Under the pieces are notes generated by a model. The model saw nothing but the letters and a program-made list of their open reading frames with translations. It ran no database searches and was not told the origin of the DNA. A stretch of 64,000 bases of DNA from CBDUXP01 sp965371225 [NCBI: uncultured bacterium]. GTDB taxonomy: Bacteria > Abyssobacteria > SURF-5 > CBDUXP01. The DNA is taken from assembly GCA_965371225.1 (NCBI GenBank), contig CBDUXP010000003.1, positions 74,877 through 138,876 of the forward strand, given 5' to 3'. The translations under genes were made by a program, and so were the position numbers. Positions within the stretch are counted from its first letter, which is position 1. Every line of letters begins with the position of its first letter. Positions 41,214 through 57,506 of this stretch are shown one piece after another.

Positions 41214-41223
41214 AGAGGTAAGC

Positions 41224-41970
41224 ATGGCGAAGCGCTCGACGACAAAATCCTCCAAATCCAAATCCGGTGGCACGCGGAGCACGACCTCCAAGACCTCCCG
41301 ACCGAAGGCCAAGGCGAAGCCCAAGGCGAAGAGCACGACGACCAGCCGGAAGAAGGGGACGGGTGCCACCAAGGGGACCGCGAAGAAAGCCGCGACCACG
41401 AAGGCGGGAACAAAGAAAACCGCGACCAAGTCCCCCGCAAAGCGGAAAGCCAGCGGATCGAAGGTTCGGAGGCCGACCCTCGCCACCAAGAAGGCCGACA
41501 GCGCGGCAGCAGCGGCCCTGGCGACGGCGCCGCCCCCCGACCCCGCGGCGGACCTGGGCCTGACGCCACTGGCGGAGGAAAAACTCCCCCCGGTGAAATT
41601 CGGCAAACGTGACCTGGCCGAAATTGAAAAAGCGCTGCATCGAGTTCGCGACCAGTTAGCGCAGGATGTGGACGCCATCACGCAGAACAACCTCACGCAT
41701 TCCGGGCGCGAGATGTCAGGGGACTTGAGCGGGTACGGCTTCCACATGGCCGATGTGGCTACGGACAACTTCGCCCGCGAGATGGAACTCAACATCGCTA
41801 CGGGCGAAACCGATCGGCTCCGGCTGCTCGAGGAAGCGCGCGACCGGCTGCAGGATGGCACGTTCGGCCGATGCCAGGTGTGCGCCGAACCGATCAACGT
41901 GGCTCGCTTGAAGGTGATTCCCTACGCGCGCCTGTGCATCCGCTGCGCCGAGGAGGCTGAGCGGCCCTGA
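41224..41970 (+). CDS. DksA/TraR-type zinc-finger protein with long histone-H1-like basic tail
   Basis: A 248-residue protein starting at ATG 41224 (GAGGTAAGC upstream). Residues 1-85 are almost only Lys, Ala, Thr, Ser, Gly and Pro ('KAKAKPKAKSTTTSRKKG'), like the tails of histone H1 or HU-type DNA-compaction proteins. Residues about 125-248 form a DksA-like part: a coiled coil ('LAEIEKALHRVRDQLAQDV') and a C4 zinc finger Cys217/220/238/241 ('CQVC...CIRC'). DksA acts on RNA polymerase with ppGpp; the canonical acidic coiled-coil tip is not obvious here. The position between ileS and lspA suggests a housekeeping role, while DNA binding by the tail is inference. Confidence 0.82.
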   Translation: MAKRSTTKSSKSKSGGTRSTTSKTSRPKAKAKPKAKSTTTSRKKGTGATKGTAKKAATTKAGTKKTATKSPAKRKASGSKVRRPTLATKKADSAAAAALATAPPPDPAADLGLTPLAEEKLPPVKFGKRDLAEIEKALHRVRDQLAQDVDAITQNNLTHSGREMSGDLSGYGFHMADVATDNFAREMELNIATGETDRLRLLEEARDRLQDGTFGRCQVCAEPINVARLKVIPYARLCIRCAEEAERP

Positions 41971-42500: not shown

Positions 42501-43248
42501 ACTGGGGCGCTTCCCCGTGCGCAGCTACGGCGTCATGCTGGCGCTGGCTTTCCTCGCGGGCATCGCGCTGGCGCGGCGGGATGCGCCACGCATTGGCGTA
42601 GACCCGGACGCCATCTCCGACCTGGGCGTGTGGGTCATCCTCTCCGCGATCGTGGGGTCGCGGGTGTTCTACATCCTGTTCTACAGCTGGGACACGGTGG
42701 TGCAGGATCCCTTGGAGGCCCTGAAGCTGTGGCATGGCGGCCTCGTGTTCTACGGGGGACTTGTCGGTGCCGTGGCGGCCAGCGCCGTGTTTCTCTGGCG
42801 CCGCGGGCTCCCCGTCATGACCGTGGTGGACCTCAGCGCGCCCGCGATCGCCCTGGGCCAAGGCATCGGGCGGCTCGGCTGTTTTCTCAACGGCTGCTGC
42901 TACGGGGTGGTGTGCGAGTTGCCGGTGGGCGTCACGTTCCCGTCGCCCCCCCCCCCCCATCCCGTCCATCCCACGCAGCTGTATGAGGCCGCCGCCCAAT
43001 TGTGCTGGGCGGCCGTGCTCTGGCGGCTGCGCACCCGGCTCCCGCAGCCCGGCGCGATGATCTCACTCTACGTGTTGACGTACGCCGCCAGCCGATTTGT
43101 TATTGAGTTCGTGCGCGGAGACGGCAACCCCATGTACGGGGCCCTCAGCTTGTCCCAGTGGATCAGTGTCGTGGCGGTGGTGGGGGTGGGGTGCGCCTGG
43201 CTGGTGTACGTCAGCCGGCGCCGGGCCGCCGCGTCGGTCCAGGGGTAG
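42481..43248 (+). CDS. lgt: Prolipoprotein diacylglyceryl transferase
   Basis: A 255-residue polytopic enzyme that moves diacylglycerol from phosphatidylglycerol to the lipobox Cys. Signature 'GQGIGRLGCFLNGCCYG', 'HGGLVFYGGLVG', 'HPTQLYEA' and the late 'SRFVIEFVRGD' are all there. ATG 42481 lies inside lspA. A run of 13 C (42946-42958) codes for four prolines in a loop before the conserved 'HPTQLYE'; slippage there would truncate the enzyme. Confidence 0.95.
   Translation: MFPILFELGRFPVRSYGVMLALAFLAGIALARRDAPRIGVDPDAISDLGVWVILSAIVGSRVFYILFYSWDTVVQDPLEALKLWHGGLVFYGGLVGAVAASAVFLWRRGLPVMTVVDLSAPAIALGQGIGRLGCFLNGCCYGVVCELPVGVTFPSPPPPHPVHPTQLYEAAAQLCWAAVLWRLRTRLPQPGAMISLYVLTYAASRFVIEFVRGDGNPMYGALSLSQWISVVAVVGVGCAWLVYVSRRRAAASVQG
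42946..42958 (+). repeat. C13 homopolymer inside lgt
   Basis: Thirteen consecutive C bases in frame, coding mainly Pro. It is the longest homopolymer I noticed in the window. Strand slippage or a sequencing error here would shift the lgt frame; at length 13 the frame is intact. Confidence 0.9.
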
Positions 43249-43257
43249 CGGCCGCCC

Positions 43258-44112
43258 TCAGGACACCACGTACAAGTAGCGGGTGCAGGACGGGCAGGTG
43301 GCGAGGCGCTCGGTGGCCCGCAGCTCCTGGGCGTAGGCGGTCGAAAACTGCATGTAACATCCCTGACAGATGCCCGCTTCGGAGGCGACAATTGCCAGGC
43401 CGCCTCGCCGCCGCAGCTTTTCATAGTGGCGGCGCACGCGCTCTGAAATGCAGGAGCGGACGTGGGCGATGCGCTCTTCCAATGCGGCGTTGGATCGGGA
43501 GCCCGCCGGCCGCTGATCCTCCAACCGCTGCAGCCGGATGAGCCGGGACACCTCCGGACTGAGCGCCGTCGGCGGAAGGACACTGCTCGCCGGGGAGGCG
43601 CGGTCGTCCAGGGTGGGATTCTCTGAGTACTGATCCGCGGCAGTCAAGAGTTCGTCCAGGAGACGATCGGCCGGGGCATGCAGGATGCGGTCCGCCAGAC
43701 CGTCATGCAGCAGCATCCGCGTCAGGGTGCTGATGATAAACAGATACCGCGCCGCTTCCTTCGGCGGGTACAGGATGAGGAAGACCAGGTGCACGGGCGC
43801 CCGGTCGATGCTGTCGAAATCCAGGCCGTCCTTGTGGCGCCCGAGGGCGCACACGATACGTTTCAACGCGGGGATGCGCGCGTGGGGGATGGCCACGGCA
43901 TGTCCGATCCCGGTGGAATCCAGGGCTTCCCGCTCCAAGACGCGCTCCGCGATCATCTCCCCATCCGGGAGGCGCCGGTAGCGCTTGACGGTGGTAATGA
44001 GCTGCTGAATCGCGTCGAGTTTATTGTCGCAGGTGAGGTCGGGCAGGATCGAACTGGCAGTGAAATACTCGCCGAAATTCATGGAGGAAAGTGTGCGCGT
44101 CGTAGAACTCAT
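43258..44112 (-). CDS. PTS EIIA-type (PtsN-like) domain fused to a C4 zinc ribbon
   Basis: A 284-residue fusion. Residues about 12-155 are a fructose/nitrogen-type EIIA domain with phosphorylatable His77 in 'GIGHAVAIPHARIP' and 'VHLVFLILYP'. Residues about 185-240 are a predicted coiled coil ('LRIQRLEDQRP..AALEERIAHVR'-like), and the C-terminus is a zinc ribbon, Cys249/252/273/276 ('CQGCYM...CPSCTRYLY'), as in the PF02591 C4 family. EIIA proteins sense phosphate flow from PEP. ATG 44112 is preferred; ATG 44082 is possible. Nothing else of a PTS lies nearby. It converges with lgt. Confidence 0.8.
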   Translation of the reverse strand: MSSTTRTLSSMNFGEYFTASSILPDLTCDNKLDAIQQLITTVKRYRRLPDGEMIAERVLEREALDSTGIGHAVAIPHARIPALKRIVCALGRHKDGLDFDSIDRAPVHLVFLILYPPKEAARYLFIISTLTRMLLHDGLADRILHAPADRLLDELLTAADQYSENPTLDDRASPASSVLPPTALSPEVSRLIRLQRLEDQRPAGSRSNAALEERIAHVRSCISERVRRHYEKLRRRGGLAIVASEAGICQGCYMQFSTAYAQELRATERLATCPSCTRYLYVVS

Positions 44113-44190: not shown

Positions 44191-44220
44191 ATTATATGGT
44201 GTCCGCCACTGGCTCCTCAA
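44191..44220 (-). promoter_or_regulatory. Promoter of the EIIA-zinc-ribbon gene
   Basis: Minus-strand -35 TTGAGG (44215-44220), 18-base spacer, perfect -10 TATAAT (44191-44196); predicted leader about 72 bases. A small hairpin AGCCCC-TCAT-GGGGCT (44220-44235) touches the -35 and could bind a protein. Confidence 0.68.
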
Positions 44221-44353
44221 GCCCCTCATGGGGCTCCCACGGGCGGCAATTCGATGGACCACGCTGGATAGTGCCTGTTTCAGCACTAGTCAATTTTTGC
44301 CGATTCGTGGTAGCATTACTTTCAGCAGAATTGCAGACTCTGGCGGTAACACG

Positions 44354-44490: not shown

Positions 44491-47400
44491 ATGGCCGAAT
44501 CCGACCGGCCAACACCGGACAGCGAGCCCGGCGAGGGGCCCGGACGTGATTCCGGGGCCGCAGGCGGGCCGGACAGCGAAGTTATCCTGGCCGACGGGAC
44601 CCCCGTTGGTGACGTTACCCGTGCGACCACCGCCGAGGAGATGGATGAACTCCTCGATCTCTTCAAGGACGAGATGGAGCCCGACCCGTCCAGTCCAGCA
44701 GCGCGGATGTCGGAGCGGGAATCGGAAGAAGAAGATCTCATCCGGCGTGCCGAGGCGCTCCTGGGCACCACGGACCCTGAAGAGCTGGAGCATCTGGCCG
44801 AACTCCACCGAGCCGAGGCGGCCGATCAGTATGCCCGGCTGAGTCAGCGCCGCGAGGAGGAAGGGGATCCGGACGCGGCGGCGACGGATCCCCCAGCCGC
44901 TTCCTGGGCGGAGACCGTGCCGGGGGAGACGGGGCAATGGGATCCGACCGCGGCCCTGGCGGACGAATTGGCGGCGGTTGAGGGGGAGCACGAGGCCGCG
45001 CTACCGGCAGCCGCTGATGCCATACCCGAACTCGAACTCGATATTACCGCCGCTTCGAGCAAGGCCATCACCGTCGTTGATCTGCCCCCAGAAACGGATG
45101 CGCTCATCGACGAGATCCTGGCCGAGGATGTCTCGGTCGCGTCAGAGCCCCCTCCCATCGAATCCGAACCGCCGGAGCCAACCCCTGTCCCGGAGGAACC
45201 CGCAGCGCCCGTGGCGTCCGAGCCGCCGGAAGCGTTAACGCCTGAACCGCCCGACGACGCGGCCGCCGCCGTTGCGGACGCGAGTGCTCCGCCGGCAGCG
45301 AGTCCGGATACGTCCGCCCCGCCGGAACCCGAACCGGCCGCTGCGGTGCAGGAATCTGAGGCGCCTGTCGAATCGCCCCCGCCCGTACTGGAGGCTGAGC
45401 CCGCCCCCGCATCGGAGCCCCCCGCCCTTCCAGAGTCCGCGTCTGCGGAGGGGGAAGAGGTTTCCGCCGAACCCGAGCCGAGCGCCGAGTCGGAAGAGGC
45501 CGCGGCGCTCGAACCCAGCGGCGTCACCGATGCGGAGCCTGAACTGCAGGCGGCCGCCTTTAGCGGTGGGAGTCTGCCGCGCACCATCGTCGGTGCGCCG
45601 CTTGCCCTTCTGGGCCGGCTCGTCAACGTGCTGCTGCCGCGCGCCCTCACCGCCCGACTTGGTCCCGGTGCGCGCGGGGGGGTGCAGTGGGTCGCCACGT
45701 CCAAGGGCCGCTTAGCGTTCACCGCCGGCATCCTGGCCGCCGTGGCCGCGTATGTGGGCTTTGCGTTGTTCGAGGCAGACTTCTCGCACCGCCTGCTTGC
45801 CCGCCGCTTTCCCGATGCCACGGGGGTTGAGGATTTGCAGTATTTCCAAGCGGTTGCCGACCTGGAGCGCGGCGAGTGCGCCCGGGCGCGCCAAGGCCTG
45901 CGGCCCCTGGTCGCGGTAGTGGGGAGTGGCCGCGAGGCGGACATCCGGTTTGCGCTCGGGGAGAGCTATTTCCTCGATCCCGACGTGCCGACGAACCTGC
46001 GGTTCTCCCGCGCCCGCGAGCATTACCTGGCGGCGATTGCTGCCGATCCGCTGCATCCGCGCGTCACGGACGCCCACCGGCGAGTGGCGGAAAGCTATCG
46101 GGCTCAGGAGCTTTGGCCGGAGGCCGAGCGTGCCTACCGCAGGCTCCTGGACCGGTATCCCCGGGCCGCCGGTCGCGCCGAGGCCCATTTCGGATTAGCC
46201 GAAGTGTTGTTCGCCGGTGCCCGGTACCCCGCAGCGGCGGACGCATTCGAGCGTGTGTGGAACGAATTCCCGGAAGCCGCCCTCGCCCCCGCGGCTCGCC
46301 TGCGCCACGGGGACGTCCTCTTGGCGGAGGGCCATGCGGCCGACGCGCAACAACTCTGGCAGGAACTGGCCCATGCCCGTACCGCGCCGACCGTGCGCTG
46401 GGGGGCCATCGCGCGGCTGGCGGACCTGGCCGAAACGCAGGGCGACCTGCGCGGCGCCAAGAACTGGTGGGAAGTGTGGCTCCGCGGCGCGCCCCACACG
46501 ACGCAACAACCCGCCGCGTGGCTGAAGTTTGCGACGTTGGCGCAACAGCTCGGCGATTCGGCAAAGGCCGCGTCGAGCTTTGACTTTCTCGTAACCGCCT
46601 ATCCCGCGCGACCGCAGGCGATCGACGCGGCGTTGCTGCGTGGCCGCATGCACCGCGTGGCGGGCGACACGCTCGCCGCCCGGGACCTGTACGCCGACCT
46701 GCTGGTGCACGCGCCGGAGCATCCCCGGCTCCTGGCGGCCCTGCGCGACGCGTACCTGGAAGAGGGCAACGCGAAGCGGGCCGTCGAGTACGCAGAGCGG
46801 GCCGCCACGGCGGCGCCCAAAGTCGCTGCGCATCAGCTTCGCTTGGCCGAAGCGCTGGAAGCGGCCAACGAGCCGGCTCAGGCGCTGACCGTGTACTGGG
46901 AGATGCTGGCGCGATATCCCATCGCGGAGGAGACGCGCGTGGCGGCGAACCGGCTGGTGCGGTTGCTGCAGGCCCAGGGGTACACGGAGGAGGCGTACCG
47001 GGTCGTGACGCTGTATGGCGCCATGGCCGGAGGAGCTGCGAGCCTCGCCGCGGTGCATGAAGCGAAAGCCACCCTCCTGGCGGGTATGCAATTGTGGGAC
47101 GAAGCGGAGACGGAGCTGGCCGCGGCCGTGGGAGCCGCGCCGTCCGATGAACTGCGCCTGACCCTGGCGGAGGTGCGCGTGCGCACCCGCAACTGGGCCG
47201 GCGTGTCCGCCAGTGTCGCCGGGGTGCGCCCGGGGGGGCTGGACGATGCCGCGTTCACGCGTTTCCTCTCGGTGCAAGCGGCGGCCCTCTTGCACACGGG
47301 GCATCCCGCGGACGTGCGTGACGTGATGGCGCAAGGCGAGGCGCGCTTGGGAGCGGCGCCACTGGAAGTGCAGGGGCTGCAGGCTCAAGCCCTCATGGTC

Positions 47401-47778
47401 CTGGGCCAGACGGCGCGCGCCCGCGAGATGATGGAGCGTTTCGACTCCGGCCGAGAAGCCCCGGCGCCCCCGCCCCCGGAACTCGCGCCGACCTATCTGG
47501 CCTGGGCCGAGCATCTTTTCGCCGCCCGGATCTTCTCGCGCGCGGCGGACTACTTTGGGCGCGTGCGCGGGGACGTGTACTCCTCCCACGACCGCGCGTG
47601 GGCCGCTTATCAGATGGCCAACTGCTACGCCCACCTGCAGGAGTACGCCCGCGCCGTTACCGCGTACGAAGCCATGATCGCCGGCCATCCGCAGGCGCCG
47701 TGGGTGCCCTTCGCCCGGGAAAAGGCGCAGTTCTCGCAGTTGCAGGCGGACGCGGCGCAGCGGGCGAACCGGACATGA
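44491..47778 (+). CDS. Very large membrane-anchored TPR protein at the head of the flagellar locus
   Basis: A 1095-residue protein. Residues 1-355 are acidic and rich in Pro, Ala and Glu (many 'PPEP'/'SEPP' units), so probably unfolded; about 372-394 is an amphipathic segment and 408-428 a membrane helix ('LAFTAGILAAVAAYVGFALF'). Residues about 445-1085 are helical repeats of TPR type ('YLAAIAADPLHPRV', 'AYRRLLDRYPRAAG', 'AVTAYEAMIAGHPQAPW'). With one internal helix, the acidic part is probably cytosolic and the repeats periplasmic. The stop overlaps the FlgN-like start, so it is coupled to flagellar genes. Some flagellar or polar scaffold role is inference. Confidence 0.75.
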   Translation: MAESDRPTPDSEPGEGPGRDSGAAGGPDSEVILADGTPVGDVTRATTAEEMDELLDLFKDEMEPDPSSPAARMSERESEEEDLIRRAEALLGTTDPEELEHLAELHRAEAADQYARLSQRREEEGDPDAAATDPPAASWAETVPGETGQWDPTAALADELAAVEGEHEAALPAAADAIPELELDITAASSKAITVVDLPPETDALIDEILAEDVSVASEPPPIESEPPEPTPVPEEPAAPVASEPPEALTPEPPDDAAAAVADASAPPAASPDTSAPPEPEPAAAVQESEAPVESPPPVLEAEPAPASEPPALPESASAEGEEVSAEPEPSAESEEAAALEPSGVTDAEPELQAAAFSGGSLPRTIVGAPLALLGRLVNVLLPRALTARLGPGARGGVQWVATSKGRLAFTAGILAAVAAYVGFALFEADFSHRLLARRFPDATGVEDLQYFQAVADLERGECARARQGLRPLVAVVGSGREADIRFALGESYFLDPDVPTNLRFSRAREHYLAAIAADPLHPRVTDAHRRVAESYRAQELWPEAERAYRRLLDRYPRAAGRAEAHFGLAEVLFAGARYPAAADAFERVWNEFPEAALAPAARLRHGDVLLAEGHAADAQQLWQELAHARTAPTVRWGAIARLADLAETQGDLRGAKNWWEVWLRGAPHTTQQPAAWLKFATLAQQLGDSAKAASSFDFLVTAYPARPQAIDAALLRGRMHRVAGDTLAARDLYADLLVHAPEHPRLLAALRDAYLEEGNAKRAVEYAERAATAAPKVAAHQLRLAEALEAANEPAQALTVYWEMLARYPIAEETRVAANRLVRLLQAQGYTEEAYRVVTLYGAMAGGAASLAAVHEAKATLLAGMQLWDEAETELAAAVGAAPSDELRLTLAEVRVRTRNWAGVSASVAGVRPGGLDDAAFTRFLSVQAAALLHTGHPADVRDVMAQGEARLGAAPLEVQGLQAQALMVLGQTARAREMMERFDSGREAPAPPPPELAPTYLAWAEHLFAARIFSRAADYFGRVRGDVYSSHDRAWAAYQMANCYAHLQEYARAVTAYEAMIAGHPQAPWVPFAREKAQFSQLQADAAQRANRT

Positions 47779-48242
47779 CCGTGGACGCCACCATCACCAC
47801 CCAGGTCGAACGCTTCGCCGAGCAGCTCGACGCGCAGGCGGGCCACTACCGCGCCGTGCTGGCGCTGGGCGCCGAGCAAGCGGCGGCCTTGGAGCGCCAC
47901 GACTTGGTCGCCTTCCACACCTTGCTCGCGCGCAAGTCGACCCTGCTCGGCGAGATTGCCGGGCTGGAGGAACAGAATTCGCCCTATCGCGCGGTCTGGG
48001 AAGCACACCGCGAGGACCTCGCCGGCCCCGTGCGCGACCGGCTCCGCGGCGTGGTGGACGAACTCCGCACCCTGCTGGAACAACTACTCGAGATGGAGCG
48101 CGCGTGCGAGGCGAAACTCGCGGCGACCAAGCTGGACGTGGAGCGTGAACTCACACAGTTGGGGCGGGGGCGACAGGCCCTGCAGTCCTATCAACCCCGC
48201 CCGACCGCCGCGCCCACCCGCCGCCTGGATTTGGGGGGCTAA
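47775..48242 (+). CDS. FlgN-like flagellar chaperone candidate
   Basis: A 155-residue all-helical protein, heptad-like throughout ('LLARKSTLLGEIAGLEEQ', 'VVDELRTLLEQLLEMERACE'), with a Pro/Arg tail. Size, helix pattern and position fit FlgN, the chaperone for hook-filament junction proteins, but the similarity by eye is weak. ATG 47775 overlaps the TPR gene stop (ATGA), and the stop overlaps the kinase start by one base. Confidence 0.5.
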   Translation: MTVDATITTQVERFAEQLDAQAGHYRAVLALGAEQAAALERHDLVAFHTLLARKSTLLGEIAGLEEQNSPYRAVWEAHREDLAGPVRDRLRGVVDELRTLLEQLLEMERACEAKLAATKLDVERELTQLGRGRQALQSYQPRPTAAPTRRLDLGG

Positions 48243-49546
48243 TGGCGCACGCGCATCTGCCACCCTCCGGGGTGCTACCGCAGATCGAGGGAGCTACCGA
48301 CTCGCTGGACGCGGTGTTGCGCCTGTTCAACGAGCACACGGCCAAGCTGGAAGAGGCCTACAGCAACCTCCAGACAGAAATCCACCGGTTGAATGCCGAA
48401 CTTGAAGAGACGAATGCCGCCCTGCAAGCGCGCATCGCCGAGGTCACGGAAATCAAGGAGTACCTGAATTGCGTGCTCGACAGCGTGACGAACGGGGTGA
48501 TCGCGGTCGACCTCGACGGGCGGATTACCGCGTTCAACGAGGGGGCGGAACGCATTACGGGGTACCGCGCGCAGGCGGCGCTGGGGCAGGCGTACGAGGA
48601 CCTGGTTGGGGTGCCGTTCGGCGTCGAGCCGGCCGCACTGGGCGCCGGCCAAGTCCCGGCCGAAGGGCAATTCCTCACCGGGGAGTTGCTCGACGTCCAC
48701 GGCCGGCCGGTCCCGGTGCGCGAGAGCACGTCCCTCATGCATGACGCTGCGGGCCAAGTCATCGGCTCCGTGAAGATCTTCGAGGATTTGAGCGAGATTC
48801 GTGAACTGGAAGCCCGGGCGCGCCAGCGGGACCGGTTGAGTGCCCTCGGCGAGATGGCGGCCACCGTGGCTCATGAGATTCGCAATCCCCTCGGCGGGAT
48901 CGAAGGGTTCGCCGCCCTGTTGGCGCGGGACGTGGCCGAGGGGGATCCGCGCCGCCGGTTGGTCGACCAGATCCTGTTGGGTACGCGGAGCTTGAATCGC
49001 GTCGTGACGGAACTGCTGCTCTTCACGCGACCGATCCAGTATCACATGCAACTTCTCGATCTCCGTGACTTGGTGGAGTCGACGTGGGCGTTTGTGGAAG
49101 GACAGGCGGCGGCGCAAGACGTCCGGCTGGAGCGCGCCTTCCCGGCGGACCCGATCCGCGTCCGCGCGGATCCCGAGCAACTGCGGCGCGCGCTCCTGAA
49201 CATGATGCTGAACGCCGTGCAGGCCATGCCCGACGGCGGCACGCTGAAGGTGCGGCTCGCGCACCGGACCCTCACCGACGAAGCGTGGGAGCCGTACGAC
49301 GCCAACCTCCAGCGCGAGTGGGTCGAACTGCAGGTGCACGATACGGGGGTCGGCATCCCGGCGAACGTGCTCGAGAAGATTTTCAACCCCTTCTTCACCA
49401 CGAGAGAGAAGGGGACCGGCCTGGGCTTGGCGACGGCCCTCAAGATTGTGGAGAGCCATTCCGGGTGGCTGCACGCCGCCAGTGACGAGTCCGGCACGAC
49501 GTTTTCCGTGTATCTACCGCGGCCGCGCGAGCGGCCCGAGACGTAA
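48242..49546 (+). CDS. PAS-domain sensor histidine kinase (FlrB/FleS-like)
   Basis: A 434-residue cytosolic kinase without membrane helices. Order: N-terminal coiled coil (about 25-75, 'LEEAYSNLQTEIHRLNAELE'), PAS domain (75-190, 'GVIAVDLDGRITAFNEGAER'), dimerisation/phosphoacceptor domain with His211 ('VAHEIRNPLGG'), and ATPase domain with N box 'MMLNAVQAMPDGG', 'HDTGVGIPANV' and 'GTGLGLATALKI'. The lack of membrane helices and its place before a sigma-54 regulator and flgB match FleS/FlrB kinases, which time flagellar gene expression. Confidence 0.9.
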   Translation: MAHAHLPPSGVLPQIEGATDSLDAVLRLFNEHTAKLEEAYSNLQTEIHRLNAELEETNAALQARIAEVTEIKEYLNCVLDSVTNGVIAVDLDGRITAFNEGAERITGYRAQAALGQAYEDLVGVPFGVEPAALGAGQVPAEGQFLTGELLDVHGRPVPVRESTSLMHDAAGQVIGSVKIFEDLSEIRELEARARQRDRLSALGEMAATVAHEIRNPLGGIEGFAALLARDVAEGDPRRRLVDQILLGTRSLNRVVTELLLFTRPIQYHMQLLDLRDLVESTWAFVEGQAAAQDVRLERAFPADPIRVRADPEQLRRALLNMMLNAVQAMPDGGTLKVRLAHRTLTDEAWEPYDANLQREWVELQVHDTGVGIPANVLEKIFNPFFTTREKGTGLGLATALKIVESHSGWLHAASDESGTTFSVYLPRPRERPET

Positions 49547-49555
49547 GGAGCTGCC

Positions 49556-50971
49556 ATGAGTGGGGCGCACATTCTGGTGATCGATGACGAACCGCTGATG
49601 CGGGATTTCCTGACGGAAACGCTGACCCGTGGCGGCTTCGCCGTGCAGACGGCGAACAACGGCGCCGCGGGGCTAGACCACCTGCGACAGCAGAGCTTCG
49701 ACCTGTGCATCACGGACATGAAGATGCCGGGGATGGACGGGTTGGAGGTGCTCGAACAGGTGCGCCAGTTGCAGCCGGACACCGCCGTCGTCCTGATGAC
49801 GGCCTACGCGTCTGTGGAGTCTGCCGTGCGCGCGCTCAAGTCCGGGGCCGTGGATTACATCATGAAACCGTTCACGCCCGATGAAATCGAACACGTGGTC
49901 GCGCGCGCGGTACGCCAACGCCGGTTGGAGCAGGAGAACCAGTACCTCCGCGAAGTCGTCAGCGCCCCGTACGATTTCCAGCAGATGGTCGGGAATTCCC
50001 CACAGATGGCGAAGATTTACGATGAGGTGAAGCGGGTCGCCGCCAGCCGCGCCAGCGTGCTCGTCCGCGGCGAGAGCGGGGTGGGCAAAGAGTTGATCGC
50101 GCGCGCCATTCACTACCACAGTCCGCGGAAGGATGGGCCCTTCATCAAAGTGAACTGCGCGGCGCTGGCCCCCGGCTTGCTCGAAAGCGAGCTGTTTGGC
50201 CACGAGAAAGGCGCGTTCACGCACGCGATCAGCAAGAAGATCGGCCGCTTCGAGTTGGCGGACGAAGGGACGCTGCTGCTGGATGAAGTGTCCGAACTGG
50301 ATCCCGGCTTGCAAAGCAAGCTCTTGCGAGTCCTGCAAGAGCGCGAGTTCGAGCGCGTAGGCGGCACCAAACCCATCCAGGTGGACGTGCGCATCGTCAG
50401 CACGTCGAACCGCCACCTGGAGGCGGCCATTGCCGAGGGTGCGTTCCGGGAGGATCTGTTCTTCCGGCTCAATGTGGTCCCGATCCACCTGCCGCCCCTG
50501 CGGGAGCGGCTCGGGGATCTGCCCCTGCTCCTCGATCACTTCGTGAAGCGCTACTGCGCAGAGAACGGGAAGCCGCCGGCCACGCTCCCCCGGGAGACGC
50601 TGGAGCACCTGCGGCGCCATGATTGGCCCGGGAACGTCCGCGAACTGCAGAACGCCATCGAACGAGCCGTGGTGTTAGCGGAGACCGATGTGCTCGGACC
50701 CGACCTGTTCCCGTTCACCGACCTGCGGCGGGCCCCGCAACCTTCCGGCAACGGCGTGTTCGCTCCGGTGGGCACGACCGTCGCGGAGATCGAGCAGACC
50801 CTCATCTTGAAAACGCTCGGCGCGTACAACAACAACAAGAGCCGGACGGCCGAAGTGTTGCAGATCAGCGTGCGCACCCTGCGCAACAAACTGAACGAAT
50901 ACCGGGCAACAGGCGTGCTGGACGACGCCAAGGCGCGGGCGGAGCGGAAGGCGGTGAATGACGCGGCCTAG
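49556..50971 (+). CDS. Sigma-54-dependent response regulator (FleR/FlrC-like)
   Basis: A 471-residue NtrC-type activator. Receiver with phosphorylation site Asp54 ('LCITDMKMPGMDG'); AAA+ domain with Walker A 'GESGVGKE', sigma-54 contact loop 'GAFTHA' and 'GTLLLDEVSEL'; C-terminal helix-turn-helix 'NNKSRTAEVLQISVRTLRNK'. GAFTHA replaces the usual GAFTGA in which Gly contacts sigma-54; such variation is known but worth testing. ATG 49556 follows AAGGAG. Its likely target is the sigma-54 promoter 125 bases downstream of its stop. Confidence 0.92.
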   Translation: MSGAHILVIDDEPLMRDFLTETLTRGGFAVQTANNGAAGLDHLRQQSFDLCITDMKMPGMDGLEVLEQVRQLQPDTAVVLMTAYASVESAVRALKSGAVDYIMKPFTPDEIEHVVARAVRQRRLEQENQYLREVVSAPYDFQQMVGNSPQMAKIYDEVKRVAASRASVLVRGESGVGKELIARAIHYHSPRKDGPFIKVNCAALAPGLLESELFGHEKGAFTHAISKKIGRFELADEGTLLLDEVSELDPGLQSKLLRVLQEREFERVGGTKPIQVDVRIVSTSNRHLEAAIAEGAFREDLFFRLNVVPIHLPPLRERLGDLPLLLDHFVKRYCAENGKPPATLPRETLEHLRRHDWPGNVRELQNAIERAVVLAETDVLGPDLFPFTDLRRAPQPSGNGVFAPVGTTVAEIEQTLILKTLGAYNNNKSRTAEVLQISVRTLRNKLNEYRATGVLDDAKARAERKAVNDAA

Positions 50972-51095: not shown

Positions 51096-51111
51096 TGGCG
51101 TGAATCTTGCT
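51096..51111 (+). promoter_or_regulatory. Sigma-54 promoter of the flgB operon
   Basis: TGGCGTGAATCTTGCT: GG at -24 and GC at -12 are separated by exactly ten bases, with only two departures from TGGCACGNNNNTTGCW. The predicted start is near 51122, giving a leader of about 63 bases to flgB. Confidence 0.82.
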
Positions 51112-51184
51112 CATTTCTGTGCGAGATGTCCCGCGTCTGGTGTACAGGTCCGCCGCCGTGCCGCAGCCCCCGAAGGAAGCACTC

Positions 51185-51568
51185 ATGGCAGATGTGAGCC
51201 GGTTGCTGGAAACGGCGCTGCCCATTTGGGAGGAAGCCCAGCGCTATACGGCGAACAACATCGCCAACGTGGACACGCCGGGCTTCTCGCCGCAGCAGGT
51301 GGATTTCCAAGCCTCGCTGCGGGCCGCGCTGGCTGGACGGTCCGGTGCCACGAGCCTGGCGCGGACGGACGCGCAGCACTTGGGCGGCGCGCGTGGCCTG
51401 CCCGGGCTGGTCATCGCGCCGTCGCAGCAGGCGACCCATCGGACCGACGGGAACCGGGTGGATTTGGATTATGAGATGACGCAGTTGGCGCGCAACAACT
51501 TCACCACCTTGGCGGAAATTCTGAAAAACCGGAACCGGCTCGTGCGGGACGTGCTGCGGGCCCGGTAG
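51185..51568 (+). CDS. flgB: Flagellar basal-body rod protein FlgB
   Basis: A 127-residue proximal rod subunit. The N-terminal 'YTANNIANVDTPGFSPQQVD' is the rod/hook signature and the C-terminal 'MTQLARNNFTTLAEILKNR' forms the paired helix. ATG 51185 follows GAAGGAAG. It is the first gene behind the sigma-54 promoter and 11 bases ahead of flgC. Confidence 0.95.
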   Translation: MADVSRLLETALPIWEEAQRYTANNIANVDTPGFSPQQVDFQASLRAALAGRSGATSLARTDAQHLGGARGLPGLVIAPSQQATHRTDGNRVDLDYEMTQLARNNFTTLAEILKNRNRLVRDVLRAR

Positions 51569-51579
51569 GAGAATGACTC

Positions 51580-51987
51580 GTGCGCTCCGCGTTTGAAATC
51601 AGTGCCGCCGGCCTCATGGCCGAACGGCGCCGGATCGAGGTCATCGCCAACAACCTCGCGAACGTGAACACCACGCGAACGCCGGACGGGACCCCCTTTC
51701 GCCGTCAGCTCGTGGTGGTGTTGGGAGAACAGCTGCGGGCCGACCGCAAGGATTCCGGCGGCGTGCGCGTAACAGGCATCGTGGATGACCCCACGCCGTT
51801 CCCCCAGGTGTACAACCCCGGCCATCCCGATGCGAATGCGGACGGGTACGTGGCCATGCCGAACGTGAATCCGATTACCGAGACGGTGGACATGTTGGCC
51901 GCCGCGCGCGCATACGAAGCAAACGTGGCCGCATTGAATGCGACCAAGCGCATGGTGGCCCGCGCCCGGAGCATCATCGAGGCGTAA
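51580..51987 (+). CDS. flgC: Flagellar basal-body rod protein FlgC
   Basis: A 135-residue proximal rod subunit: 'RRIEVIANNLANVNTTRTPD' at the N-terminus, 'VNPITETVDMLAAARAYEAN' at the C-terminus. GTG start at 51580 with TAGGAG nearby. Confidence 0.96.
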   Translation: MRSAFEISAAGLMAERRRIEVIANNLANVNTTRTPDGTPFRRQLVVVLGEQLRADRKDSGGVRVTGIVDDPTPFPQVYNPGHPDANADGYVAMPNVNPITETVDMLAAARAYEANVAALNATKRMVARARSIIEA

Positions 51988-52014
51988 CGCGGGGACGGAC
52001 GAGGAGCACGGATT

Positions 52015-52326
52015 ATGGTGGACATTGGACAAGTCGGCGGCATCGACGGGGCCGGGGGCGTACAGCCCACCCAGCCGTCCGCCCCGGGTAAGCCGCAGAC
52101 CGGCGGCCCGGATTTCAAAGACCTGCTCTCCGACTCGATCAGGGAGATTGAGCAATTGCAGGCGCAGGCGGATCAGGCCATCGATGGGCTCGTGACGGGG
52201 GCAGTGACCAACGTGAGCCAGGCCATGCTGGCGATCGAGCGGGCGGACATGGCCTTTCGCACCATGATGGAAATTCGCAACAAGATTCTCGCGGCCTACG
52301 AGGAAATCAACCGCATCCCCTTGTAG
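52015..52326 (+). CDS. fliE: Flagellar hook-basal body protein FliE
   Basis: A 103-residue adaptor between the MS ring and the rod. The C-terminal helices 'SQAMLAIERADMAFRTMMEI' and 'RNKILAAYEEINRI' are typical; the first 40 residues are a loose Gly/Pro/Gln-rich stretch. Confidence 0.93.
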   Translation: MVDIGQVGGIDGAGGVQPTQPSAPGKPQTGGPDFKDLLSDSIREIEQLQAQADQAIDGLVTGAVTNVSQAMLAIERADMAFRTMMEIRNKILAAYEEINRIPL

Positions 52327-52348
52327 GAAGGCGGAGTAACCGGCGTCC

Positions 52349-53932
52349 ATGAACATCCTTACGCAGTTCGTCGAACAGTTCCGCTCCGCGTGGGCCAACA
52401 GCAGCCTTGGCCAGCGGGGCGTGTTGGTGGGCGCGATCGCCGCGGTGGTGCTGGGCCTCGGTTCCGTGATCTTCTTCACCGGCCAAGGGGACATGGCCGT
52501 GTTGTACTCCGGCTTGACCGACCAGGATGCCGGCGCGGTGGTCGAGGCGCTGCGGGAACGCGACATCCCCTTTCGCGTGCGCGAGAGCGGCGGCACCATC
52601 GAGGTGGAACGGCAACGGGTGGCCGAGACCCGGCTGACCCTGGCGCAGGCGGGACTGCCCTTCAGTTCCGGTATCGGCTTCGAACTATTCGACCGCAGCG
52701 AGTTCGGTATTACGGATTTTGCGCAGAAAGTGAACTTCAAGCGGGCGACGGAAGGGGAGCTGGCCCGAACCATCAATCACTTGCAAGAGGTGCGGTTTGC
52801 GCGCGTGCAACTCGTCCTCCCCGAACGCCGGCTGTTCGGGCGCGACCAGGCCGAGCCGACCGCGGCCGTCTTCCTCGCGCTGCAGCCCGGGCGTGTGCTC
52901 AGCCGCGGGCAGGTGGCGGCCATCCAGCACCTCGTCAGCAGCAGCGTGGAACGGCTCAGCCCGCACAGGATCACGATTACCGACCAGTACGCAAATGCAC
53001 TCGCGGCACCGACGGATCCCGCCAGCGCGGCGGGGTTGTCCACCTCACAGTTGGAAGTGCGCCGGGCGGTAGAGCGCTCGCTCGAAGCCAAAGTGCGCGT
53101 CATTCTGGATCGCGTGGTGGGCCCGCGCCGCTCGGCGGTGGCCGTGACGGTGGACATCGACTTCGACCGCGTCGAGCGCACGGTCGAGCGTTTCGATCCG
53201 GACAGTCAGGTGGTCCGGAGCGAACAGCGGCAATCCGAAAAGTCGACGAGCGGCGCACCCGATACCGGCGGCGCCGTGGGGCTGACCGCAAATCTGCCGA
53301 CCGCCACGAACGTGGGGGCGGCGGGCGGCGGCGGGGGCTCGACGACGAAGAGCGACAACACGACGACCAACTACGAAATCGACAAGACGGTCGAGCACAT
53401 CGTGAAATCGCCGAGCACCCTCAAGGGCCTGTCCGTTTCGGTGGTGGTGGACGGCACGTACACCGTGCCCGACGGGGGCGGCGAGAAAACGTATCAGGCG
53501 CGGACCCCGGAAGAGATGGAGAGCCTCAGGCGGCTGGTGCTGGCGGCCGTCGGGGGTTCCGGCGACCCAACCGTCGAAGTGCTCAACGTGCCCCTGGACA
53601 CGAGTGTGCAGGAGGCTGAATTGGTGGCCCAGGAGCAGGCGGAACGCCAGCGGCTGTTCGAAACCGGGACGATCGTGTTGCGGTACGTCGGAATCATCGT
53701 GGTGGCTCTGGTGGCGTTCGGCGTAGTCCGCCGCATGGTCGCCGCGATGGCGCGTCGGCCCCGGCCGATGGCCCCCATGGGCGAAGGCGCCGCGTCGCTG
53801 GGCGCGGCGTTAGACCTGACCGCCGGCGCCCCGACGGATACTGAAACGCGTTCGGCGCAACTACAAGAACTGAGCCGGGAACGGCCGGATGACCTGGCCG
53901 CTCTGGTGAAGAGTTGGATGGTGGAACGCTAG
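52349..53932 (+). CDS. fliF: Flagellar MS-ring protein FliF
   Basis: A 527-residue ring protein with two membrane helices (about residues 24-46 'VLVGAIAAVVLGLGSVIFF' and 447-466 'VLRYVGIIVVALVAFGVV'). The ring-building motifs follow the first helix ('VLYSGLTDQDAGAVVEALRE', 'FDRSEFGITDFAQKVN'). A Gly/Thr/Ser-rich loop ('GAAGGGGGSTTKSDN', about 325-345) lies in the periplasmic part. The C-terminus, which should bind FliG, ends 'DDLAALVKSWM'. Confidence 0.96.
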   Translation: MNILTQFVEQFRSAWANSSLGQRGVLVGAIAAVVLGLGSVIFFTGQGDMAVLYSGLTDQDAGAVVEALRERDIPFRVRESGGTIEVERQRVAETRLTLAQAGLPFSSGIGFELFDRSEFGITDFAQKVNFKRATEGELARTINHLQEVRFARVQLVLPERRLFGRDQAEPTAAVFLALQPGRVLSRGQVAAIQHLVSSSVERLSPHRITITDQYANALAAPTDPASAAGLSTSQLEVRRAVERSLEAKVRVILDRVVGPRRSAVAVTVDIDFDRVERTVERFDPDSQVVRSEQRQSEKSTSGAPDTGGAVGLTANLPTATNVGAAGGGGGSTTKSDNTTTNYEIDKTVEHIVKSPSTLKGLSVSVVVDGTYTVPDGGGEKTYQARTPEEMESLRRLVLAAVGGSGDPTVEVLNVPLDTSVQEAELVAQEQAERQRLFETGTIVLRYVGIIVVALVAFGVVRRMVAAMARRPRPMAPMGEGAASLGAALDLTAGAPTDTETRSAQLQELSRERPDDLAALVKSWMVER

Positions 53933-53954
53933 CGTTCCGCCAGGAGACGGTTCG

Positions 53955-54965
53955 ATGAGTGCCCGCGATCTAACCGGCCGGCAAAAAGCCGCCATCCTCA
54001 TGGTCACGCTGGGGCCCGAGGCCTCCTCCGCGATCATGCAGCAGTTGTCCCCGGAAGACATGGAAGACCTGACGTTGGAAATCGCCAGCCTCGGGACCGT
54101 CTCTCCGGAGACGAAGGCCGACATCATTGATGAGTTTCACCAACTCGTGCTGGCGCGCGAGTACGTATCGTTTGGAGGGATCGAGTACGCGCGGACCGTC
54201 CTCGAACAGGCCGTCGGCGAGGAAAAGGCGAGCCAGATCCTCGCGCGGCTGGAAAGCAACCTCCAGGAAATTCCGTTCGACTTCATCCGCAAGGCGGATC
54301 CCGTGCAGGTGCTCAACTTCATTGCGAGTGAGCACCCCCAGACCATCGCCCTCATCCTCGCGCACCTGCCGCCGGGCACGGCTGCGACGGTCCTGGGGGC
54401 ACTGCCGGAGGACTTGCAGACCGAGGTGACCCTGCGTATGTCCGTGTTGGAGCAGACCTCACCCGACATCGTGCGGGAAATCGAGGCAGTCCTGGAAAGC
54501 AAGATGGTCGAGCTGTTCCAGCCGGACATGCTGAAAGTCGGTGGGGTGCAGAACGTGGCCCAGATTCTCACCATGGCCGACCGCTCCACGGAGAAGGGCA
54601 TCCTCATGAACCTGCAGGAGCAGGACCCCGAACTCGCGGAGGAGATTCGCGCGCTCATGTTCGTCTTCGACGACATCGTGCTCGTCAACGATGCGGGCAT
54701 TCAGCGCGTGCTCAAAGAGGTGGACAACAAGGATCTCTCGCTGGCGCTCAAAGCCGCCGCCGATGAGGTCAAGGACAAAGTGTTCAACAACATGTCCAGC
54801 CGCGCGTCCGACATGATTCGCGAAGACATGGACTACATGGGGCCTGTCCGCCTGCGCGACGTGGAGGCCGCCCAATCGAAAATCGTCGAGGTGGTCCGCC
54901 GGCTCGATGATGCGGGCGAGATCATGATCGTCGGCCGCGGAGACGACGACGAGTTGGTCGGTTAG
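53955..54965 (+). CDS. fliG: Flagellar motor switch protein FliG
   Basis: A 336-residue C-ring protein. 'RQKAAILMVTLGPEASSAIM' (FliF-binding domain), the middle 'EHPQTIALILAHLPPGTAAT' with EHPQ motif, and the torque helix region 'LVNDAGIQRVLKEVDNKDLS' plus 'RASDMIREDMDYMGPVRLRD' are complete. Stop and fliH start are four bases apart. Confidence 0.97.
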   Translation: MSARDLTGRQKAAILMVTLGPEASSAIMQQLSPEDMEDLTLEIASLGTVSPETKADIIDEFHQLVLAREYVSFGGIEYARTVLEQAVGEEKASQILARLESNLQEIPFDFIRKADPVQVLNFIASEHPQTIALILAHLPPGTAATVLGALPEDLQTEVTLRMSVLEQTSPDIVREIEAVLESKMVELFQPDMLKVGGVQNVAQILTMADRSTEKGILMNLQEQDPELAEEIRALMFVFDDIVLVNDAGIQRVLKEVDNKDLSLALKAAADEVKDKVFNNMSSRASDMIREDMDYMGPVRLRDVEAAQSKIVEVVRRLDDAGEIMIVGRGDDDELVG

Positions 54966-54969
54966 CCCC

Positions 54970-55695
54970 ATGTCCCGCATCGTCCGCCCCGAAGAGGGCC
55001 TGCCCCTGACGCCGTTTGAGGAAGCGCCATTTACCGAAGCCGACATCGCCGGTGAGGCCCCCTCTCTCACCGAGGAGCTGATCACGCCGGAGGAGCGCTT
55101 GCGCCGCGCCGACGAAGAGGCGCGGGTGCTCATCGAACATGCCGAAGCGCAGGCGGCGGATATTCGCCGGGCCGCCGAATCGCGTGGCCGAGCGGTGGGC
55201 GAAGCCACCGGAACGGCACAGGGGATGCAGGAATACGAGGCGATGACCGGGACCCTGCGCGCGGTCGCCGAGGCGGTCCAGGCCGAACAGCAGCGGCTCG
55301 AAGCGCAACTGACCGACAACGTGGTCGCCCTCGCCCTGGCCATCGTCCAGCGCATGCTCGGGGACATCACCGGCGACCATCCCGAAACCATGCGCCACGT
55401 GACGACCCAGGCGGTCCGCGCATTGAGCGAGCGCGGCGCCGTGGCGGTGCACGTGCACCCCACTGTGGTAGACGTGGTGGAGCGGGAACGCGAGTCGCTG
55501 CAACAGGCGTTTCCGGACGTGCACGACCTCACGATCGTCGCGGATGACGCGGTGGCGCCCGGCGGCTGTCTACTGGACACGCCCACCATCCAATTGGATG
55601 CCACTGTTGAGCGCGTCATCGAACGGATCCGCGCCGAGGCGGTGCCGGGCGGCGGCCGCATCGACGCGCCCACGGCGGCGGAGGAGGAGGCCTAA
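54970..55695 (+). CDS. fliH: Flagellar assembly protein FliH
   Basis: A 241-residue negative regulator of the FliI ATPase. The N-terminal third is acidic, the middle is a long helix with small residues ('LIEHAEAQAADIRRAAES', 'GEATGTAQGMQEYEA'), and the C-terminal half resembles the vacuolar E-subunit fold ('ALAIVQRMLGD', 'HVHPTVVDVVERE', 'PGGCLLDTPTIQLDATVE'). Three bases separate it from fliI. Confidence 0.9.
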   Translation: MSRIVRPEEGLPLTPFEEAPFTEADIAGEAPSLTEELITPEERLRRADEEARVLIEHAEAQAADIRRAAESRGRAVGEATGTAQGMQEYEAMTGTLRAVAEAVQAEQQRLEAQLTDNVVALALAIVQRMLGDITGDHPETMRHVTTQAVRALSERGAVAVHVHPTVVDVVERERESLQQAFPDVHDLTIVADDAVAPGGCLLDTPTIQLDATVERVIERIRAEAVPGGGRIDAPTAAEEEA

Positions 55696-55698
55696 CCC

Positions 55699-57036
55699 AT
55701 GGCGGTGGTAGACATGCCGGCCCTCCTCGACCGCATTCAGACTGCGCCCATCCACGTGGAGTGCGGGAAAGTCGTGCGCATCACCGGCCTGATCGTCGAA
55801 GCCACCAGCCCCGGGCTCGCGCTCGGCTCGCGCTGCGCGATCGCGGGCCCCCGCGGGTTGGAGCCCGTCCCCGCCGAAGTGGTCGGCTTTCGCGAGAACC
55901 GCGCGTTGCTCATGCCGTTCGGCTCCGTCCACGGCATCGGACCGGACTGCCGTGTGGTTCCCCACCCGCGTCAGGATGAACTCGCCGTGGGCCACAACCT
56001 GCTGGGCCGCGTTCTGGACGGGTTGGGCCGGCCCATCGACGGGAAAGGTCCCGTCCCGGGCGAGGCCTACGTTCCCATCTACCGTCCGGCGCAACGGGCG
56101 CTCGCCCGCGCGCGGATCACGGAACCGCTCCCCCTGGGGATCGCGGCGATCGATGCGCCCCTCACCATCGGACGCGGCCAGCGCATCGGGGTCTTCTCGG
56201 GCAGTGGCGTGGGCAAGAGCGTGCTGCTAGGCATGATCGCCCGGAACTCCGCGGCGTCGATCAATGTGGTGGCGCTCATCGGCGAACGGGGACGGGAAGT
56301 GCGCGAATTCCTCGAAAAGAATCTGGGGCCCGAGGGATTGGCCCACAGCGTCGTGGTAGTCGTGACGTCGGACGAGTCCGCCCTGTTGCGCGTCCACGGC
56401 GCGGCCGTCGCGACCGCCATCGCGGAGTACTTCCGGGACCTGGGGAATGACGTGCTCTTCATGATGGATTCCGTGACGCGGTTCGCCATGGCCCAGCGGG
56501 AGATCGGCCTCGCGGTGGGCGAGCCGCCGACCACAAAGGGCTATCCGCCCAGCGTGTTCGCCATGTTGCCGCGCCTCCTGGAACGGACCGGCCACGCGCC
56601 TCACGGCAGCATCACCGGCATCTACGCCGTGTACGTGGAAGCGGACGACTTTAATGAGCCGATCAGCGACGCGGTGCGCTCCGTGTTGGACGGCCACATC
56701 GCCTTGTCCCGGTCCTTGGCCGAACGGAACCAGTATCCGGCTGTGGACGTGCTGGCGTCCGTGAGCCGGCTGATGGTGGACATCGTCCCGCCCGCCCACC
56801 TGCGGGCGGCGCGGATCCTGCGCAACGTCCTGAGCACCTATCAGGAAGCGGAGGACCTGATCAATATCGGCGCGTACGTGGCCGGTTCGAACGCGCGCAT
56901 TGACTATGCCATGACCAAGTACGAGGCGGCGCAAGCCTTCCTGCGCCAACCCATCGACGGGCGGCGCGGGTGGGAGGACACCATTCCCCAGCTCGAGCAG
57001 CTCTTTGCCGACTATCCGTTCGAGGATATGGACTGA
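55699..57036 (+). CDS. fliI: Flagellum-specific ATPase FliI
   Basis: A 445-residue ATPase of the flagellar export apparatus. Walker A 'GSGVGKSVLLGM', 'LIGERGREVREFLEKNLG', Walker B region 'DVLFMMDSVTRFAMAQREI' and the DELSD-like 'LDGHIALSRSLAERNQYPAV' are all conserved. The stop overlaps the fliJ start by one base (TGATG). Confidence 0.97.
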   Translation: MAVVDMPALLDRIQTAPIHVECGKVVRITGLIVEATSPGLALGSRCAIAGPRGLEPVPAEVVGFRENRALLMPFGSVHGIGPDCRVVPHPRQDELAVGHNLLGRVLDGLGRPIDGKGPVPGEAYVPIYRPAQRALARARITEPLPLGIAAIDAPLTIGRGQRIGVFSGSGVGKSVLLGMIARNSAASINVVALIGERGREVREFLEKNLGPEGLAHSVVVVVTSDESALLRVHGAAVATAIAEYFRDLGNDVLFMMDSVTRFAMAQREIGLAVGEPPTTKGYPPSVFAMLPRLLERTGHAPHGSITGIYAVYVEADDFNEPISDAVRSVLDGHIALSRSLAERNQYPAVDVLASVSRLMVDIVPPAHLRAARILRNVLSTYQEAEDLINIGAYVAGSNARIDYAMTKYEAAQAFLRQPIDGRRGWEDTIPQLEQLFADYPFEDMD

Positions 57037-57506
57037 TGGGGTTCCGCTTTCGGTTCGACACCTTGCTGCGACAGAAGCAGCGCGTGGTGGACGAAATCGC
57101 CAGCCGGTTGGCGCGCGCCATGCGCCTGGTGCACCAGGAACAGGACACGCTGGTCACGCTCAAGGATGCGCAGAACGCCCAGCAGCAGTACTACGCCGAT
57201 TGCCTGGGGGACCCGCACCTGGACGCCCCCACCCTGCGGCGGGCGGTGCAGTACGCGCAGTTCCTCGACCAAGCGCTCGACGAGCAGCACGAGCGCATTC
57301 GAGAAATGACGGACCGCGCAGAGAAAATCCGTGCCTTGCTCGTGGAAGCCGAGCGCGGGAAGCAGGTCTTCAGCAACTTGAAGGAGCGCCGACGCACCCA
57401 GTTCTACCAGGACCTGGCGGCGCGGGAGCGGGCGCACTTCGACAGCATCGCCAACACGATCTTCACCGTGAAGCACCAGGCCGCCGTGCGGGAGCGCGAG
57501 GCGTAA
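57036..57506 (+). CDS. fliJ: Flagellar export protein FliJ
   Basis: A 156-residue two-helix coiled coil that links FliI to the export gate. It begins 'MGFRFRFDTLLRQKQRVVDE', the usual FliJ start, and has charged heptads to the end ('EHERIREMTDRAEKIRALLV', 'KERRRTQFYQDLAARE'). Confidence 0.9.
   Translation: MGFRFRFDTLLRQKQRVVDEIASRLARAMRLVHQEQDTLVTLKDAQNAQQQYYADCLGDPHLDAPTLRRAVQYAQFLDQALDEQHERIREMTDRAEKIRALLVEAERGKQVFSNLKERRRTQFYQDLAARERAHFDSIANTIFTVKHQAAVREREA

Follow-up and report, generated by a model that had tools for sequence, protein, structure and literature searches.

A phosphotransferase-system EIIA domain joined to a shortened DUF164 zinc-ribbon module in one predicted protein

Here we report a gene in which a phosphotransferase system (PTS) EIIA domain is followed, in a single reading frame, by a linker and a shortened DUF164/zinc-ribbon domain. 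It lies in a 64,000-nucleotide stretch of contig CBDUXP010000003.1 from CBDUXP01 sp965371225, the whole of which we call the window, and encodes 284 amino acids (Table 1). Two known families are combined here in a new way, one of them unusually shortened; a first-pass annotation did not treat the pair as a described system, which agrees with our searches of open-licence PubMed Central and the papers cited below, in which we met no EIIA-DUF164 fusion. As far as can be told, the gene encodes a real two-domain protein and an artefact is unlikely. The reading that we favour, at a probability of roughly 40%, is that the product is a cytosolic regulatory adaptor phosphorylated by the PTS, with the ribbon module as its output.

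Results

Integrity of the gene

The frame opens with an ATG, and its strand, length and position are those of the first-pass annotation. A second in-frame ATG encodes Met11, the start being either Met1 or Met11, and the open frame extends upstream of the first ATG to a GTG at 44286. Codon scores, calculated in overlapping 60-codon segments that cover residues 1-270 and leave residues 271-284 outside, were highest of the six frames in 8 of 8 segments, and the G+C content by codon position (0.64/0.48/0.81) is similar in the adjoining lgt and ileS genes. A frameshift, or two separate genes run together, had been raised as a doubt at the outset; we reject this on the frame scores, which support one coding frame over residues 1-270. 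The score does fall from 0.3-0.6 in the first half to 0.2-0.4 in the second, as might follow from an assembly chimera or an indel joining ptsN to a DUF164 gene, but the frame remains the best of six in every segment, the linker between the modules is normal, and a simple indel would leave the long DUF164 hairpin, which is absent here. We consider such an origin very improbable. Upstream of the gene, the TATAAT promoter that had been assigned to it is present as a pattern, matching the consensus at 10 of 12 positions, but stands as a consensus match only; three such sites were found in a 1.7-kb region against 0.3 expected.

The EIIA domain

A Pfam scan of the product returned PTS_EIIA_2 and Zn_ribbon_9, both above their cut-offs, and no third family up to E = 1. 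PF00359 covers residues 16-150 (cut-off 27 bits, E = 7.5e-23). A full-length, confident AlphaFold model built from a composite alignment (A3, 28 rows) has a mean predicted local distance difference test score (pLDDT) of 87.6 and a predicted template modelling score of 0.62, and consists of two modules separated by a disordered linker. Chains ranked by Foldseek were compared using VIA-align (568 for the full-length model, 234 for the second module alone). At most residues 9-162 of the model align with four solved EIIA-Ntr/PtsN structures at Z scores of 21.3-22.4; the best EIIA structure without an Ntr label, 3oxp, reaches 17.9.

His77 lies within STGIGHAVAIPH, the counterpart of which in 1a6j, a solved nitrogen-regulatory IIA protein, is STGIGNGIAIPH, and it occupies the position of the phospho-acceptor histidine in the TGIGxxxAIPH region. 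Together with R61, E62, T67, G70, P76 and D103, it is invariant across 32 EIIA rows, the window included. Pfam, the superposition on 1a6j and the His77 alignment agree with the first-pass call of a PtsN-like phosphoacceptor domain.

The shortened DUF164 module

PF02591 matches residues 249-280 with 30.6 bits (E = 3.7e-7), just 1.5 bits above its cut-off of 29.1, and the assignment of a ribbon of this type with Cys249, Cys252, Cys273 and Cys276 is supported by Pfam, profile, phmmer and structure alike. An hmmsearch with a ribbon-containing alignment recovered 4ilo, 3na7 and 5y05. Among the loci that we fetched, phmmer with the last 94 residues matched 20 DUF164 frames below 1e-5, at up to 46.5 bits; these are separate genes of 244-345 amino acids in genomes from the same phylum as G001, a metagenome-assembled genome labelled Myxococcota that contains locus L001. 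The fusion protein keeps 12 of the 15 columns conserved in at least 15 of 17 aligned DUF164 ends, and retains all six columns that are invariant in the 17 (Gly, four Cys and Arg).

Residues 184-284 of the model superpose on residues 1-234 of HP0958/FlgZ (3na7) with a Z score of 13.1 (101 aligned, root-mean-square deviation (rmsd) 2.4, 20% identity). A model of the module alone, with the EIIA domain left off (97 residues, pLDDT 88.4), matched 3na7 (Z 12.5), 5y05 (11.6), 5y06 (11.5) and 4ilo_A (11.2), followed by a fifth entry at 3.9; the top four represent three solved DUF164 proteins (FlgZ, CT398 and MSMEG_4306), also found by profile. The aligned part of the module begins at the start of the DUF164 chains (residues 5-8) and finishes close to their end, and the fusion protein therefore seems to retain the two ends of the DUF164 hairpin. 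The long N-terminal coiled-coil hairpin itself (FlgZ residues 1-170) was not found, about 40 residues being left in the models. As modelled, the C-terminal part looks like a whole DUF164 fold in which the hairpin has been cut from ∼170 to ∼40 residues. Of the coiled coil plus ribbon originally described, the ribbon stands; the generic coiled coil gives way, on the specific structure matches, to a shortened hairpin belonging to the same DUF164 protein. A test for the DUF164 N-terminal motif, in which LIRLQRLEDQ was aligned, supports this only weakly: the score of the real sequence was equalled or exceeded by 20 of 2000 shuffles of residues 165-224, with a profile biased by its construction from 13 of the 20 DUF164 frames, picked by a regular expression that itself fits the motif in the window.

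The fusion protein thus shares with FlgZ/HP0958 of Helicobacter pylori and CT398/CdsZ of Chlamydia (DUF164, COG1579, PF02591) the predicted ribbon and hairpin base, and a site of the CxxC-x(18-26)-CxxC type. It differs from both in a hairpin shorter by ∼130 residues and in the EIIA domain placed in front, and scores 17.4 bits on the NCBIfam CdsZ model, the cut-off of which is 275. Passages of the study by Pereira in 2011 (PMC3372290) state that all but three of the 349 DUF164 proteins then in Pfam had no other defined domain; a NIF3 fusion is among the three, and elsewhere the study mentions a SET-domain protein from a fungus. The NIF3 fusion, Wolinella succinogenes WS2117, is described there with DUF164 near the C-terminus and another domain, as here, but with NIF3 as the partner instead of a PTS domain.

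Search for other copies

No second EIIA-DUF164 fusion was found among the matches listed from the genome contigs, plasmids, viral contigs and 377 sampled genomes that we searched. A scan of genome contigs with six short peptides, which reaches close relatives only, returned 131 stretches with two relatives and no fusion; in both relatives EIIA is encoded separately, next to a gene read as rpoN. Viral contigs gave eight stretches with no relative, and 275 plasmid records matched, in none of which was 80% of the query covered at a single place. The phylum of G001 was sampled with 57 and then 377 genomes, the latter searched with the protein and then with profile A3, scoring up to six or nine candidates per genome. 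Among the matches listed, none reaches the ribbon cysteines from the EIIA part: the furthest EIIA row ends at 238 with an internal stop in the protein search, and at 175 of 217 with profile A3. The fetched loci held 46 EIIA frames (with some genes counted twice) and 23 ribbon matches at E 0.01, with no frame carrying both, and separate EIIA and DUF164 genes are present in both G001 and G002. Beside canonical DUF164 genes, where the flanks were too short to be informative, 10 of 20 neighbouring frames were scanned; five had a Pfam match, none of them flagellar or NIF3.

The IleS protein of the window shows 45-50% identity to its counterparts in the 14 of 57 genomes passing E 1e-200. From this degree of identity the window probably comes from a phylum other than the one sampled, so that the fusion protein's own relatives were not reached.

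Discussion

A proposed regulatory adaptor under PTS control

The favoured reading builds on computed features, namely a single reading frame, the predicted folds and key residues of the two domains, and a DUF164 fold with a short hairpin. On this model the EIIA-Ntr-like domain would receive a phosphoryl group on His77 from a carrier of the HPr/NPr type, and its charge and surface would thereby report the PEP (phosphoenolpyruvate)/nitrogen state. The flexible linker would carry the minimal DUF164 module as the output, which would bind zinc through its four cysteines and, we infer, a gene-expression partner according to the phosphorylation of His77. Gene fusions often mark working partners.

Should the protein be such an adaptor, we see about an even chance that its clients belong to the flagellar/sigma54 circuit (RpoN, FliH or a flagellar mRNA), which we consider likeliest because of the partners of its relatives and the gene context. 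In passages of PMC3372290, FlgZ is reported to protect RpoN from turnover, its ribbon cysteines being required for motility and RpoN levels, and to have FliH (by two-hybrid) and flaA mRNA as partners. CT398, according to passages of PMC5947703, uses its coiled coil to bind RpoN, and both coiled coil and ribbon to bind FliH and CdsL. For its part, ptsN was first noticed by its effects on sigma54-dependent nif expression, as recounted in part of PMC13104625. The first-pass annotation suggested that the protein could convert PEP/nitrogen status into an effect on RNA or protein; it mentioned neither the action of studied PF02591 proteins on sigma54 and FliH nor the occurrence of a sigma54 activator and fliH in the window.

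A number of observations weigh against our reading or its flagellar extension. NCBIfam ranks the fructose-type model TIGR00848 (83.0 bits) above the PtsN model TIGR01419 (72.6, cut-off 138.7), both falling below their cut-offs, and NF008145 reaches 56.1 of the 221 required. For this reason 'fructose/Ntr superfamily' is the safe label for the EIIA domain, 'PtsN-like' resting on the predicted structure. The fold and phospho-histidine region are common to the fusion protein and PtsN/EIIA-Ntr, but the fusion gene has a second domain and is not placed in an rpoN operon as expected of PtsN proper, its neighbours being lgt and a tetratricopeptide repeat (TPR) gene. The ribbon module departs from three of the 15 conserved DUF164 columns (Leu at an Ile column, Thr at a Pro column and Ala at an Arg column). 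The fusion is one gene in one genome, with no relative to show that the architecture has been maintained. The flagellar genes are on the opposite strand and begin beyond the 1095-amino-acid TPR gene, and their link to the fusion gene is therefore one of proximity only; sigma54-like sites are no more frequent in the window than chance predicts (12 against 11.6 expected). A pure FlgZ-like role is most strongly opposed by the loss of most of the part with which CT398 binds RpoN, which makes partners of the FliH type or RNA at least as likely. A FlgZ-type factor in which an EIIA switch has largely replaced the sigma54-facing hairpin, and through which PEP/nitrogen status would govern RpoN stability or flagellar export and expression, strikes us as quite unlikely.

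The near loss of that coiled coil also favours a PTS-controlled RNA binder, in which the ribbon acts on RNA, the EIIA domain tunes its activity, and sigma54 and flagella are uninvolved. Precedents are the association of FlgZ with the flaA transcript (passages of PMC3372290) and the RNA chaperone activity in vitro of Borrelia BB0713 (passages of PMC13285594), and residues 184-284 carry a net charge of +7. Net charge is a weak cue, however, many zinc ribbons bind proteins, and the part of PMC13285594 available does not map the BB0713 activity to the ribbon; we hold this alternative to be possible but doubtful. Alternatively, the protein could be an ordinary regulatory PtsN to which a chance gene fusion has added the ribbon as a structural tail or oligomerisation element, given that the EIIA domain is complete and close to PtsN and that the collections searched hold no other copy. 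A tail with no use should have decayed, whereas the models predict a well-folded module and every invariant DUF164 column has been kept; we judge this explanation unlikely.

Under the adaptor reading, a single chain brings together two long-standing questions, namely how PtsN could act on sigma54-dependent expression and what DUF164 ribbon proteins do, and if the EIIA domain controls the ribbon then the protein is a compact test of both. It makes a link from the PTS to sigma54 and flagella, or to RNA, directly testable, and hints at a possible direct link from the energy state of the cell to gene expression. The shortening of the hairpin points to the part of DUF164 that may be dispensable.

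Gene neighbourhood and other features

Table 1. Coordinates of the fusion gene, its parts and neighbouring features in the window
Feature	Coordinates	Strand	Basis
Fusion gene, 284 aa: EIIA (PTS) domain, linker, shortened DUF164/zinc-ribbon domain	43258..44112	-	single open frame, Pfam, codon frame score
EIIA-Ntr-like domain, aa 11-161	43630..44082	-	PF00359 81.5 bits; 1a6j_A Z 22.4, 148 aligned, rmsd 1.8
His77 codon, expected phosphoryl acceptor	43882..43884	-	matches the His of GIAIPH in the solved PtsN 1a6j
Linker, aa 165-184, largely disordered	43561..43620	-	pLDDT <50 at 169-181
Shortened DUF164 module, aa 185-284: stub hairpin and C4 zinc ribbon	43261..43560	-	structure matches, full-length and alone
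Expected zinc-binding site CxxC-x20-CxxC, Cys249/252/273/276	43285..43368	-	direct reading
Promoter-like site TTGAGG-18-TATAAT, upstream of the fusion gene	44191..44220	-	consensus match only
FlgN-like gene	47805..48242	+	PF05130 30.3 bits, just below the 30.5 cut-off
NtrB-like PAS histidine kinase	48242..49546	+	PAS, HisKA, HATPase_c
NtrC-type sigma54 activator	49556..50971	+	Sigma54_activat 233 bits, Response_reg, HTH_8
flgB, flgC, fliE, fliF, fliG, fliH (54970-55695), fliI, fliJ	51107..57506	+	Pfam, each above cut-off

Reading of ileS (a name given from its translation only), the DksA/TraR-type gene, lspA and lgt is directed toward the fusion gene, and open reading frame (ORF) order and Pfam agree that it faces the lgt end of this run, as first annotated. 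On its other side, and divergent from it, are the TPR gene, the FlgN-like gene, the NtrB-like kinase, the NtrC-type activator and the flagellar cluster; the kinase is 4.1 kb, the activator 5.4 kb and fliH 10.9 kb from the fusion gene. The gene after fliJ had no Pfam match above cut-off, and genes beyond it were read from ORFs only. An NtrC-type activator implies that RpoN is encoded in the genome, and rpoN was not recognised within the 64-kb window.

The first-pass observation that no PTS is nearby holds as far as tested. Inspection of the window ORFs revealed no PTS gene and no EIIB or EIIC partner; in bases 1-36000 only ORFs of at least 250 amino acids were considered, and a small HPr gene could be missed there. 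A crude regular expression for HPr/EI sites, run over the whole window, also found none. An Rfam scan of the window returned only a tRNA.

Further features of the neighbouring genes were noted. One sigma54-like site, TGGCGTGAATCTTGCT (51096-51111, plus strand, two mismatches), lies ∼75 bases before the likely flgB start and belongs to the chance-level class. The NtrC-type activator reads GAFTHA at the place of the usual sigma54-contact loop, GAFTGA. The TPR protein (44491-47778, plus strand) has a long acidic, proline-rich N-terminal part followed by a likely membrane segment, judged by eye, and its TPR part is above the cut-off of the YbgF model. Between ileS and lspA, the C4 zinc-finger protein of DksA/TraR type (41092-41970, plus strand) has a long N-terminal extension rich in Ser, Thr, Lys and Ala, its exact start being uncertain; it exceeds the Pfam zf-dskA_traR cut-off but none of those set for the six NCBIfam models listed. 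Finally, a run of 13 C at 42946-42958 within lgt (SPPPPHPV in the protein) is a possible site of slippage or sequencing error, at which the frame is intact.
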